A stretch of DNA of 39,850 nucleotides, taken from IMG/VR virus record IMGVR_UViG_3300028837_000766, positions 1 to 39,850 of that record; one strand, given 5' to 3'. The notes beneath the pieces were generated by a model, which saw only the letters and a list, made by a program, of their open reading frames with translations, was not told where the DNA came from and made no database searches. Both the position numbers and the translations under genes were made by a program. Positions within the stretch are counted from its first letter, which is position 1. Each line of letters begins with the position of its first letter. The stretch is from a virus. Shown one piece after another: positions 1,068-39,117 of this stretch.

Positions 1068-1097
1068 ATCTTACCAGATGCCATTGTCATTTGTCAA
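1068..1097 (-). promoter_or_regulatory. Candidate sigma-70-type promoter for leftward genes
   Basis: On the minus strand a perfect -35 box TTGACA (1097-1092) is followed after 18 nt by TAAGAT (1073-1068), matching the -10 consensus at four of six positions. The -10 box ends 6 nt before the ATG at 1061, so initiation would fall on or next to the start codon and the mRNA would be leaderless or nearly so. Confidence 0.45.
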
Positions 1098-1107
1098 TAG
1101 GGTAACG

Positions 1108-1129
1108 CAACAAAATGCTCATTTTGTTG
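1108..1129. repeat. Perfect palindrome, 10-bp arms
   Basis: CAACAAAATG, a two-base spacer, then CATTTTGTTG: a perfect inverted repeat in the divergent intergenic region. It lies immediately before the plus-strand terminator hairpin and just upstream of the leftward promoter. It may be an operator for a dimeric repressor, an RNA hairpin, or part of a packaging site. Confidence 0.6.
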
Positions 1130-1130
1130 T

Positions 1131-1153
1131 AACCGTCCAATAGGGCGGTTTTT
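1131..1153 (+). terminator. Rho-independent terminator, plus strand
   Basis: AACCGTCC (1131-1138), a 4-base loop AATA, then GGGCGGTT (1143-1150) running into five Ts (1149-1153). The stem has one G-U pair that forms only in plus-strand RNA, which sets the direction. It would stop plus-strand transcription entering from the left, which would be antisense to the leftward genes, before the terminase operon. Confidence 0.55.
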
Positions 1154-1158
1154 GCATC

Positions 1159-1258
1159 GCTAGGGCGAGTAACCCTGGCCTGACAGCTTCGGCTGTTTCT
1201 AATACCCTAGGGAGCTGGGGAGCCAAGTTGTAAGGGAAGTCTTACAGTAATGCTCCCC
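1159..1258 (+). ncRNA. Candidate structured RNA or leader before terminase
   Basis: About 100 nt that can fold almost completely. Stem A: GCTAGGG (1159-1165) with CCCTGGC (1173-1179). Stem B: ACAGC-UUCG-GCUGU (1183-1196), a C(UUCG)G tetraloop. Stem C: GGGGAGC (1217-1223) with GCTCCCC (1252-1258), enclosing stem D: TGTAAG (1229-1234) with CTTACA (1241-1246). CTAGGG (1160-1165) can instead pair with CCCTAG (1205-1210), giving a mutually exclusive fold. The UUCG loop and G-U pairs favour plus-strand RNA. No known riboswitch family was recognised. It may instead be a DNA packaging (cos/pac) region. Confidence 0.45.
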
Positions 1259-1274
1259 GTACTATTGTGTTGCT

Positions 1275-1646
1275 ATGAATACTATGAATAATAAGATTGA
1301 AAAACACGGAAACAACAAAGGTGGCAATCCCAACTGGACGAAGGGCGTTAGTGGTAATCCCAATGGGCGACCCAAGCGGATAGTTAGCCTAACTTCTGAG
1401 ATGAAGGCGCAGTTGGGTAATGTCTGCCCCTATGATTCCGAAAAGCGCACTTGGCTGCAATATCTAGTTGAGAGATGGTTAGCACACTCAATTGAAAATG
1501 CCACTTATTTTAGAGAGCTTATTGAGAGGTTGGAGGGCAAGGTAACTCAGCCGATAGGTGGCGATGAAGAAAAGCCTTTTAGGCATGTTATTCAAGTTGT
1601 AGACAATGAAACCAAGAAGGCACTGACCGACTTTCTCCAAGAATGA
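1275..1646 (+). CDS. terS: Terminase small subunit (DUF5681-like)
   Basis: A 123-residue protein whose N-terminal part holds the GNPNWTKGVSGNPNGRPK signature (around residues 16-33) typical of DUF5681 proteins encoded next to phage large terminases. The small subunit recognises phage DNA at the packaging site and loads the large subunit. The remainder is helical and acidic at the end. It overlaps terL by 4 nt. There is no obvious SD before the ATG at 1275; the ATG at 1284 is an alternative start. The structured region just upstream may regulate it or be its binding site. Confidence 0.75.
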   Translation: MNTMNNKIEKHGNNKGGNPNWTKGVSGNPNGRPKRIVSLTSEMKAQLGNVCPYDSEKRTWLQYLVERWLAHSIENATYFRELIERLEGKVTQPIGGDEEKPFRHVIQVVDNETKKALTDFLQE

Positions 1647-2836
1647 AGACTACACATATATTCTCAGAAAATCTGTTCGCTTATCGAGAGGGCAAACGAC
1701 GGGCGCTGAACGAAGGCGGTACTGCGTCAAGTAAGACATGGTCCATCCTACAGCTTCTTATTCTCATAGCGCAGAAAGCCAAATCGTCAGTGCTAATATC
1801 GGTGGTAAGTGAGTCCTTGCCCCATTTGAAACGTGGGGCAGTGCGTGACCTGTTTCGTGTTCTGGACGAGAGCCCTGACAATAACCCTAGATATAATAAG
1901 ACAGAGCAGACATACACCTTCGGCAAGGGGAAGATAGAGTTCTTCGGTGCCGATGAATCTGACAAGGTTCGTGGACCCCGGAGGGATATTCTGTTTATTA
2001 ATGAGGCCAACAATGTGCCCTGGGAGACAGCCCGAGGTCTAGATATACGGACTAACAAGTTCACATTCTGCGATTGGAATCCTGTTAGTGAATTCTGGGC
2101 ACACGAATACTGGATAGGGCAGACAGAGAACGCTTATGTCCATTCGACTTATCTGGATGCTCTTGCTGTCCTACCGCCAGAGGTTATAGCCAATATCGAA
2201 TCCAACAAGGACAAGGACCCGAACTGGTGGAATGTCTACGGATTAGGTAGGCTCGGAAAAGTAGAAGGATTGGTGTATCCCTACTTCAATCAGGTAGATG
2301 TCTCCCCTGGGGGCGACATATTCTATGGGTTGGACTTTGGTTATTCTAACGATCCTACGGTATTAGTGCGGTGCGTGCTATTAGGGGATGGACTATACTG
2401 CCAAGAATTGATTTATGAGACGGGGCTTACCAATGACGCTATTGCTTACCGCATGGGAGAGATAGGTCTTCGGAAGCATGATGATGAGATATTCGCTGAC
2501 TCTGCCGAACCGAAGTCCATAGAGGAAATCTATCAGCATGGATTCAATATAAAAGGGGCGCCGAAAGGCCCGGGGAGCGTGGAATACGGTCACCAGAAGG
2601 TAAGGCAGTTTAAGCAGTACTGGACTAAAGATTCTGTGAACTGTATCAAGGAGCAAAGGAATTTTAGATTTATAGCCGATAAGAACGGTAAACTCACAGA
2701 GAAGACAACACATACCTTCTCGCACGGCATGGATGCCAGGAGATACGGAGTCATAGGCAAGGTTGAACCCAAGGAACAGGAAGAGATAGTTATCTATGAC
2801 TCGATGGAAACTGTACGAGACTTGGAGCTAAGATGA
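1643..2836 (+). CDS. terL: Terminase large subunit
   Basis: A 397-residue packaging motor and nuclease of the PBSX/Terminase_3 type. Walker A is GGTASSKT (residues 25-32); Walker B with the catalytic glutamate is ILFINE (116-121). The RNase H-like nuclease domain shows acidic residues in GLDFGYSND (D231) and EIFADS (D286), with a further HGMDARRYG near the end. It translocates DNA through the portal and cuts genome units. The start overlaps terS (ATGA), and the stop overlaps the portal start in the same way. Length is normal for the family. Confidence 0.93.
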   Translation: MKTTHIFSENLFAYREGKRRALNEGGTASSKTWSILQLLILIAQKAKSSVLISVVSESLPHLKRGAVRDLFRVLDESPDNNPRYNKTEQTYTFGKGKIEFFGADESDKVRGPRRDILFINEANNVPWETARGLDIRTNKFTFCDWNPVSEFWAHEYWIGQTENAYVHSTYLDALAVLPPEVIANIESNKDKDPNWWNVYGLGRLGKVEGLVYPYFNQVDVSPGGDIFYGLDFGYSNDPTVLVRCVLLGDGLYCQELIYETGLTNDAIAYRMGEIGLRKHDDEIFADSAEPKSIEEIYQHGFNIKGAPKGPGSVEYGHQKVRQFKQYWTKDSVNCIKEQRNFRFIADKNGKLTEKTTHTFSHGMDARRYGVIGKVEPKEQEEIVIYDSMETVRDLELR

Positions 2837-6854: not shown

Positions 6855-7130
6855 GTGAAAACAATAGTCCATTGGGACTCTAATTACCGACATCCAGCAA
6901 CCGAAATACAACTAGTAAATTTGGATTGTTGTCGTATAGGCAAAGATGAACAATTGTTATTGAAATACCAGAAGGATAAAGATTGGCGAGTCAAAGTTAT
7001 ATACTCAACGATAGTTCTTGATTTGACAGAAAATGAATCGGAACAGCATCTTTTTGTTTCACCATGTGATGAGGATGGTTTCATTCTGGACTATGACCAA
7101 ATAAAAAGGCTAGAAGATAGATTGGAATGA
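6855..7130 (+). CDS. Hypothetical protein
   Basis: A 91-residue frame with GTG start behind AAAGGAGG. Beta-rich centre (LLLKYQKDKDWRVKVIYSTI) and an acidic end; two adjacent cysteines at about residues 25-26. No family recognised. Followed by a hairpin with a T-rich tail, so it may close a transcription sub-unit. Confidence 0.6.
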   Translation: MKTIVHWDSNYRHPATEIQLVNLDCCRIGKDEQLLLKYQKDKDWRVKVIYSTIVLDLTENESEQHLFVSPCDEDGFILDYDQIKRLEDRLE

Positions 7131-7165
7131 AGCCTAAGTAAAATAGAATATAAGCCAATAGACGG

Positions 7166-7220
7166 AGGAACCGCAGGCTTTTGAGTGAAAAACTCAGGTC
7201 TGCGGTTCTTTTGTTGTTTA
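7166..7220 (+). terminator. Terminator-like hairpin with T-rich tail
   Basis: GAACCGCAG (7168-7176) pairs perfectly with CTGCGGTTC (7200-7208), extended by a G-U and an A-U pair, around a 23-nt loop that can form a small inner TGAG/CTCA stem. CTTTTGTTGTTT follows. It may partly end transcription before the scaffold and capsid genes, or stabilise an mRNA end. Confidence 0.5.
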
Positions 7221-7229
7221 GGAGGAAAG

Positions 7230-7436
7230 ATGAACATAGAGACAATGTCAAAACTGATTCAGGACATAGCGATAGCAGAGGTATTTCGCTATGACGATGA
7301 TATTTGGATTAAAACGAATGCATCTCATAATGATGCTGGATTTCAATGCGTTGATCTCCGTGTTGGAAGCTTGGTATATCTGAAGCAAGGAACGAAAGTT
7401 ACACAAGTTCAGGCTTGCGTCTATCTATACACATAG
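7230..7436 (+). CDS. Hypothetical small protein
   Basis: A 68-residue protein from the ATG at 7230, chosen because TTTAGGAGGAAAG precedes it. A GTG at 7185 in the same frame is rejected because it lies inside the hairpin loop and has no SD. Alternating beta pattern (AEVFRYDDDIWIKTN, SLVYLKQGTKVTQ). No family recognised. It sits directly before the protease/scaffold gene. Confidence 0.6.
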   Translation: MNIETMSKLIQDIAIAEVFRYDDDIWIKTNASHNDAGFQCVDLRVGSLVYLKQGTKVTQVQACVYLYT

Positions 7437-38703: not shown

Positions 38704-39117
38704 ATGAGGACTGACGAGCGAGAACCATACCAGCTCTATGAGATAAGATTCACCCAGGACCAAGTAATCTGGCTCCTGGGGATATTGCCCTTACTTCGTA
38801 ACGGTTGGTGGCCTGAAAGCGACGATTGCCAGGGCTCTCATTCTAGGCGTGCCTATTTTGAAACCCCCATTTTACTAGCACGCGAAATAGATGCCAGATT
38901 AGAAAAGACGGAGACTGACGGAGCAATGGCAGAAGGGAGATATACATTGCTCAAATCCTATGAAAGTTTGGCGAAGCAATATCGTTTCCAGTATGAAGAG
39001 GTTGTATGGCGGATTGAGAAGGCTATAAAGTATATCTCAGGTTGGAAGCGGAAGCGCCGAAGCTATAAAGAATGGAAAGAGCATAGGAAAGGTGTTAAGA
39101 TTCCCTCCTCTGTCTAA
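38704..39117 (+). CDS. Hypothetical protein
   Basis: A 137-residue protein. Helical with a basic C-terminus (ISGWKRKRRSYKEWKEH) and a conserved-looking VIWLLGILPLLRNGWW segment. Its last 23 nt overlap the 3-prime end of the convergent minus-strand HTH gene. Last plus-strand gene in the window. Confidence 0.6.
   Translation: MRTDEREPYQLYEIRFTQDQVIWLLGILPLLRNGWWPESDDCQGSHSRRAYFETPILLAREIDARLEKTETDGAMAEGRYTLLKSYESLAKQYRFQYEEVVWRIEKAIKYISGWKRKRRSYKEWKEHRKGVKIPSSV

Follow-up and report, generated by a model that had tools for sequence, protein, structure and literature searches.

A candidate two-hairpin RNA family in phage late leaders, on plasmids and in defence loci

We examined the intergenic region ahead of the terminase operon in a virus record of 39,850 bases (the window, meaning the whole of that record). 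The region carries an element of two hairpins, H1 and H2, joined by a 2-nt linker, and relatives of this element occur in phage leaders, on plasmids and on chromosomes. Matching changes in the stems, together with absence from the RNA catalogues searched, make it very probable that the element is a structured RNA of a family not recognised before. We also assign it with good confidence to phage late leaders. Judged from sequence comparison, it is most likely an RNA module of mobile elements that binds a protein and that phages have taken into the late leader.

What began as a single odd leader is now a probable RNA family with a search model and a consensus (GAGYA loop, C-Y-GAC junction). It recurs in two contexts: in phage late leaders with a Q-like gene nearby, and in stand-alone form beside anti-phage genes. 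The carriers span a Thermus plasmid, a betaproteobacterial plasmid and MAGs of two phyla. To our knowledge, few RNA elements are common to phage late control and defence loci. Small structured RNAs carried by mobile elements are a kind already known. The family itself appears new, since the model R2 does not match HK022, BjrC68 was rejected and the literature searched contained no paper on a late-leader two-hairpin RNA of this sort.

The leader and its conserved core

All leader structures in the window lie between a block of leftward genes (first start at 1061) and the terS-like gene, which is followed by terL and portal (Table 1). The sequence-only reading of this region had described a perfect palindrome, a terminator and about 100 nt of nested, almost fully paired RNA that included a UUCG loop. 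The palindrome was confirmed: the arms of the dyad are perfect, it is the only such match in the window at up to three mismatches, and it had no equal in 100 shuffles. It lies outside the conserved RNA family and was not seen in the leaders of relatives. The terminator is present as the terminator-like hairpin T1, which our terminator scan missed (judging by eye, on account of its T count); the T1 sequence had no match in viral contigs, and terminators precede H1 in L057, L058, L060 and L120 as well. The further hairpins are present as H1, H2 and H3. They do not make up one conserved unit, however, because only H1-linker-H2 is conserved, and the dyad, the terminator and H3 vary.

Table 1. Features of the window and their coordinates
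Feature	Positions	Strand	Description
Sigma70-like promoter of leftward genes	1068-1097	-	TTGACA-18-TAAGAT
Dyad	1108-1129		CAACAAAATG-CT-CATTTTGTTG; 10-bp arms, 2-nt centre; operator-like
T1	1131-1153	+	terminator-like hairpin AACCGTCC-AATA-GGGCGGTT, then TTT; -11.5 kcal/mol
Whole element	1152-1205 (R2, R3); 1151-1205 (R1)	+	covariance models, 62.7-74.2 bits
H1	1159-1179	+	hairpin, 7 bp; loop CGAGUAA (GAGYA core)
H1-H2 linker	1180-1181	+	CU, 2 nt; CC or CU among phage members
H2	1182-1197	+	hairpin GACAGC-UUCG-GCUGUU; UUCG loop
Tail after H2	1198-1202	+	UCUAA, pyrimidine-rich; many members U-rich here
H3	1217-1258	+	hairpin, -22.7 kcal/mol; separates element from terS; sequence not conserved
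terS-like gene	1275-1646	+	DUF5681-like, slightly below Pfam cut-off; no obvious Shine-Dalgarno site
terL	1643-2836	+	terminase large subunit, after terS
Sigma-region-4/Q-like regulator gene	38704-39117	+	near right end of record

The segment 1100-1275 folds at -72.1 kcal/mol (z -4.96), a stability equalled by none of 200 shuffles, and 1155-1275 by itself gives z -2.59, with 2 of 200 shuffles as stable. The minus strand is likewise more stable than chance (z -3.7), so energy alone cannot assign the RNA to the plus strand. Covariation and wobble pairs do make that assignment: the alignment contains 27 G-U cells against 3 A-C cells (13 against 3 with the base pair of H2 excluded), an excess that points to plus-strand RNA as opposed to a DNA palindrome. 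The sequence-only reading had recognised no known riboswitch signature here; in a search of Rfam 15, no family reached its gathering threshold and nothing matched the element even at an E-value of 5.

Carriers were sought first in the records of terL relatives and then by pattern scans of IMG/VR. The records of terL relatives match H1-linker-H2 only, at sites away from terS, and share the pattern GC[CT]A[AG]GG-CGAG[TC]AA-CC[CT]TGGC-C[CT]-GACAGC ... GCTGTTTC. The IMG/VR scans added further carriers, including four divergent ones (L103, L106, L117 and L120). The window copy has the 7-bp H1, the 7-nt loop, the 2-nt linker and an H2 that starts with GAC and closes with GU[UC], and the family shows compensatory changes. 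The base of H2 is constant, and its apical part ranges from 4 nt (the UUCG tetraloop of the window) to more than 60 nt (L058). The GAGYA loop of H1 may be likened to the GNR(N)A pentaloop of lambda boxB.

Compensatory changes emerged when related phage sequences were aligned for a covariance model. Among the 10 IMG/VR members, which include the close relatives L057, L058, L060 and L061, 6 of 13 pairs changed on both sides and 98.5% of cells were paired; none of 500 shuffles reached any of the measures, and slid controls were 25-59% paired. With plasmid and chromosomal members added (22 in all, aligned by fitting to the model), 7 of 13 pairs and 40 cells changed on both sides. Carriers had been picked by sequence patterns that themselves fix parts of H1 and the junction. 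Before modelling, the loops of H2 were shortened manually; the E-values of the models rest on a short calibration, and the window's own R1-R3 scores are high by construction because the window helped to build the models.

An element of 122 nt is 97.5% identical in L058 and L061, and the sequence directly flanking it cannot be aligned on either side; with near-identical copies in unrelated flanks, the element looks like a moving module.

Other routes from the window led less far. Its DNA had no direct match in sequenced phages, and homologues of terS were distant, with upstream regions that look coding. Pattern matches in L062-L065, L067, L069, L070, L073, L074, L077-L079, L099-L102, L104 and L105, and in L107-L116, L118, L119 and L121, have no paired H1 and look like chance; short matches in mycobacteriophage and Streptomyces phage contain no complete element.

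Plasmid, chromosomal and defence-locus members

We ran the model R2, built solely from the 10 IMG/VR members, on genomes from two phyla (396 and 398, respectively). Clear matches outside its building set were L137 (41.9 bits), L146 (36.1 bits) and L147 (34.3 bits), and genome matches of 22-28 bits were regarded as mostly chance. BLAST with a consensus of these three retrieved a Sulfuricystis plasmid (35/35 bases), Thermus oshimai pTHEOS01 (91%) and the Dolichospermum phage Dfl-JY45, which R2 scores at 33.5-36.1 bits; the Sulfuricystis plasmid sequence agrees with that of L146, so the two count as one carrier. Overall, plasmid and chromosomal members absent from its building set score 31-42 bits with R2. 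Within one class, the model R3 was positive in 6 of 369 genomes, with scores of 48-58 bits, a patchy distribution that fits mobile DNA. No match to the family was found in E. coli genomes, and a GTDB scan with the strict phage pattern gave three matches with poor model scores, which we took as chance.

The H1 loop of plasmid and chromosomal members reads AGAGYAU, AUAGYAU, AUCGCAU or UGAGCAG, with GYA constant. L066, from phage contigs, combines an H1 loop of the plasmid/chromosome type with an H2 of the phage type; this member and L080 had initially been selected by an H2 pattern. One contig, L147, contains three copies on the minus strand (870-938, 943-1012 and 1501-1569), two of them spaced 4 bases apart.

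On plasmids and in defence loci the element has the appearance of a stand-alone RNA gene of roughly 65 nt. About 5-25 nt separate it from the end of an upstream sigma70-like promoter in L164 (TTGACA-17-CATAAT, 11/12), L170 (10/12), L147 and L169 (both 9/12) and the Thermus member L165 (TTGACA-17-TTTAAT, read by eye). H2 is followed by a U-rich tail, neighbouring genes run mostly in the opposite direction, and for most members on plasmids and chromosomes there is no gene in the same orientation that could be controlled in cis. This part of the family looks like genes for a small RNA, one of the readings suggested earlier.

Neighbours are often anti-phage genes, named here after PADLOC annotations: an HmaA-like helicase in L165 and L174, NYN/HEC-09 in L165, and further NYN genes, recognised by sequence, in L176, L178 and L179. 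With NYN (HEC-09) the element is divergent; with HmaA it sits where the helicase gene ends. A search that started from the protein gave a HEC-09 match in 14 of 369 genomes. At the two loci with the highest scores, L180 (an earlier member) and L181 (new), the element is found immediately upstream in divergent orientation, with a weaker instance in the same arrangement in L190. L181 and L190 keep CCGAC and the H2 base, with T runs behind H2; their H1 loops differ, so loop identity is not universal. L172 and L173 lie outside Hma/NYN-type loci, and no NYN gene was seen beside the element of the window. The layout is not that of a type III toxin-antitoxin system, in which RNA repeats would stand upstream of a nuclease gene and in its orientation, because the element is divergent from NYN.

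Phage late leaders and Q-like genes

Phage members come from several lineages and lie mostly at the early/late junction ahead of the terminase genes. The sequence-only reading had suggested a cis-acting RNA of phage late operons; placement in a terminase-operon leader stood in several phages, and the element proved not to be confined there. The terminase operon directly follows the element in L106, a high-GC genome, as it does in the window, and lies some kilobases downstream in L117, L120, L039 and L058. The exception is L103, a contig that looks plasmid-like or unrelated to late genes and in which the next gene is convergent.

One family of sigma-region-4/Q-like regulator genes, to which the gene at 38704-39117 of the window belongs, occurs upstream of the element in five carriers. 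In L039, L117 and L120 it immediately precedes the leader, and in L058 and L060 small genes intervene. In the window, the leftward gene block and the record ends separate the Q-like gene from the leader. No end repeats were found in the record, which ends at a repeat of the AAGGATATG type and may therefore be a nearly complete genome that was broken there during assembly. At 160, 873 and 39846 (minus strand), leftward genes share a AAGGATATG-type ribosome-binding sequence upstream, and two of the leftward genes with this sequence begin MRTI.VKY.

A profile of the Q-like family was matched in 15 of 34 records; six of those sequences had served to build it. The L120 regulator matches phrog_79, 'anti-termination protein Q-like', at an E-value of 4e-4; the window protein has no significant Q match. 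A predicted model of the Q-like protein has a mean pLDDT of 82.8, and its helical core aligns to sigma region 4 with Z of 7-8.7. Foldseek returned Q21 entries for this model only among weak rows, at E-values of about 1 or more, and the VIA-align rows include no Q entry. Behind the Q-like gene, L039, L120, L051, L055, L036 and L005 have promoters scoring 10-11/12 and terminator-like hairpins. The Q-like gene is also present in G002, G013, G014, G017, G029, G030 and G032, which have no convincing match to the element; late control thus does not require it.

Several other sequences recur or stand out in these leaders. A TTGACAATAGGG-like stretch, which might be a pause or regulator site, comes straight after the late -10 box in the late leaders of L120, L051, L039 and L058, and the corresponding place in the window (1091-1103) is occupied by TTTGTCAATAGGGT. 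L036 has a tRNA-like sequence at about 570-645, between two late-leader terminators, with a CAT anticodon read by eye. Behind the element of L120 (flipped), several hundred bases at about 6900-7330 form more strong hairpins, and ORFs are scarce. A foldable GAGGCGACATAGGGTTTTGTCCTTATGAAGTCTC segment is repeated in L039 (about 2385-2440 and 2735-2790) and found in L061 (about 585-640), coding in one place and leader in others.

Modes of action

Constancy resides in the H1 loop, the junction and the H2 base, and not in stem sequence or H2 length, which argues for a protein-binding RNA over a plain terminator. In phages the element repeatedly stands where late transcription begins, which speaks for an effect on the nascent late transcript, and stand-alone genes without a cis target argue for action in trans; both can hold if the RNA binds a general factor. 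Action in cis in the late leader is our leading but tentative reading, slightly more doubtful than probable, and we hold with less confidence the possible mechanism in which polymerase and/or a Q-like protein acts where transcription terminates or continues. Rightward transcription would set out near 1100, pass T1 and H1-H2 and continue into terS, although no rightward sigma70 promoter was recognised in the window. A protein would read the constant parts, that is the GAGYA loop of H1, the C-Y-GAC junction and the H2 base; in phages the late transcript would be read as it is being made, in concert with RNA polymerase and/or the Q-like regulator, and the effect would be comparable to that of HK022 put or lambda Q-pR'-tR'. 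Release of the element as a small RNA would be an alternative outlet.

The serious competitor, which we regard as possible though rather unlikely, is a trans-acting small RNA. The leader would stop or be cut after H2 to give an RNA of roughly 50-100 nt (in its small-RNA form predicted at 60-70 nt, from near AAACCCCGCC to just after H2), the plasmid and defence-locus members would be the same RNA's own genes, and the protein partner would act in trans. Lambda pR' offers a parallel, as it yields the 6S RNA. Promoters just upstream, with convergent or no genes downstream (L164, L170, L147, L169 and L165), agree with such a product, as do the U-rich tails, the T runs in L181 and L190, and the divergence from NYN/HEC-09 that the protein-side search also recovered. 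In the window, however, H2 is short and a poor terminator (-6.0 kcal/mol, with an imperfect U tract), and the stretch from T1 to H1 showed no promoter.

If the leader simply carried tandem terminators or an attenuator, H2 would be an intrinsic terminator and H1 a spacer or second terminator, their likeness across members arising from terminator-like composition. We consider this improbable. T1 does precede H1, T-rich runs follow H2 in L120, L080 and L169, and tandem terminator-like hairpins are common in these leaders. Terminators require no particular loop or junction sequence, however, whereas the H1 loop, the linker and the GAC junction are conserved here; U tracts are poor in L103, L106 and L117, and covariation extends into H1, which has no U tract.

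With even less confidence, the stand-alone RNA could be imagined as serving Hma/NYN-type defence loci, either as a functional component or by controlling them, and the phage late-leader copy as a decoy that would disarm or silence it. A DNA-level site, whether a cos/pac packaging signal or a repressor operator, is very improbable: the element adjoins terS in the window and lies near the terminase genes in L106, and H1 is an inverted repeat as DNA too, but other members are kilobases from terS/terL, on plasmids or in defence loci, the H2 arms stand 4 to more than 60 nt apart, and the G-U wobble cells are strand-specific and favour RNA, so that the packaging site put forward earlier is not borne out. 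Scarcely credible is the bistable switch once proposed for CTAGGG, since its CCCTAG complement, perfect in the window, pairs with it in about 3% of the ensemble (95% for H1), costs 4 kcal/mol if forced and has no perfect Watson-Crick counterpart in the 12 other members checked.

Among known systems, HK022 put is likewise a pair of adjacent stem-loops carried on the leader transcript of a phage; it is about 70 nt long, lies in early leaders and binds polymerase via the beta' zinc-binding domain (PMC9378689). The element differs in sequence, in junction and in its late leader, and its polymerase action is only proposed; run one way against the HK022 genome, R2 gave only an 8-bit chance match. 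Several relatives resemble lambda/21 Q-pR'-tR' in their order of Q-like gene, promoter, terminators and late genes; the window itself yielded no such promoter. The Q site of lambda and 21 is DNA, and the Q system is not known to include a conserved two-hairpin RNA. Antitermination by conAn also combines a protein with an RNA component at the start of a mobile-element operon, in Gram-positive conjugation operons unlike the setting here (PMC8955417). BjrC68 (RF02353), a small RNA that ends in a terminator hairpin, overlaps the L147 element at 22.7 bits; we rejected it, as this is below its 39-bit cut-off and its matches in other genomes fall elsewhere. Hma is a candidate system, and an RNA component is not mentioned in those parts of its description that we draw on (PMC8565338). 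In the Hma and HEC-09 loci named by PADLOC, a homologue of the element occupies the other strand, in the space between the HmaA-like helicase and NYN genes.
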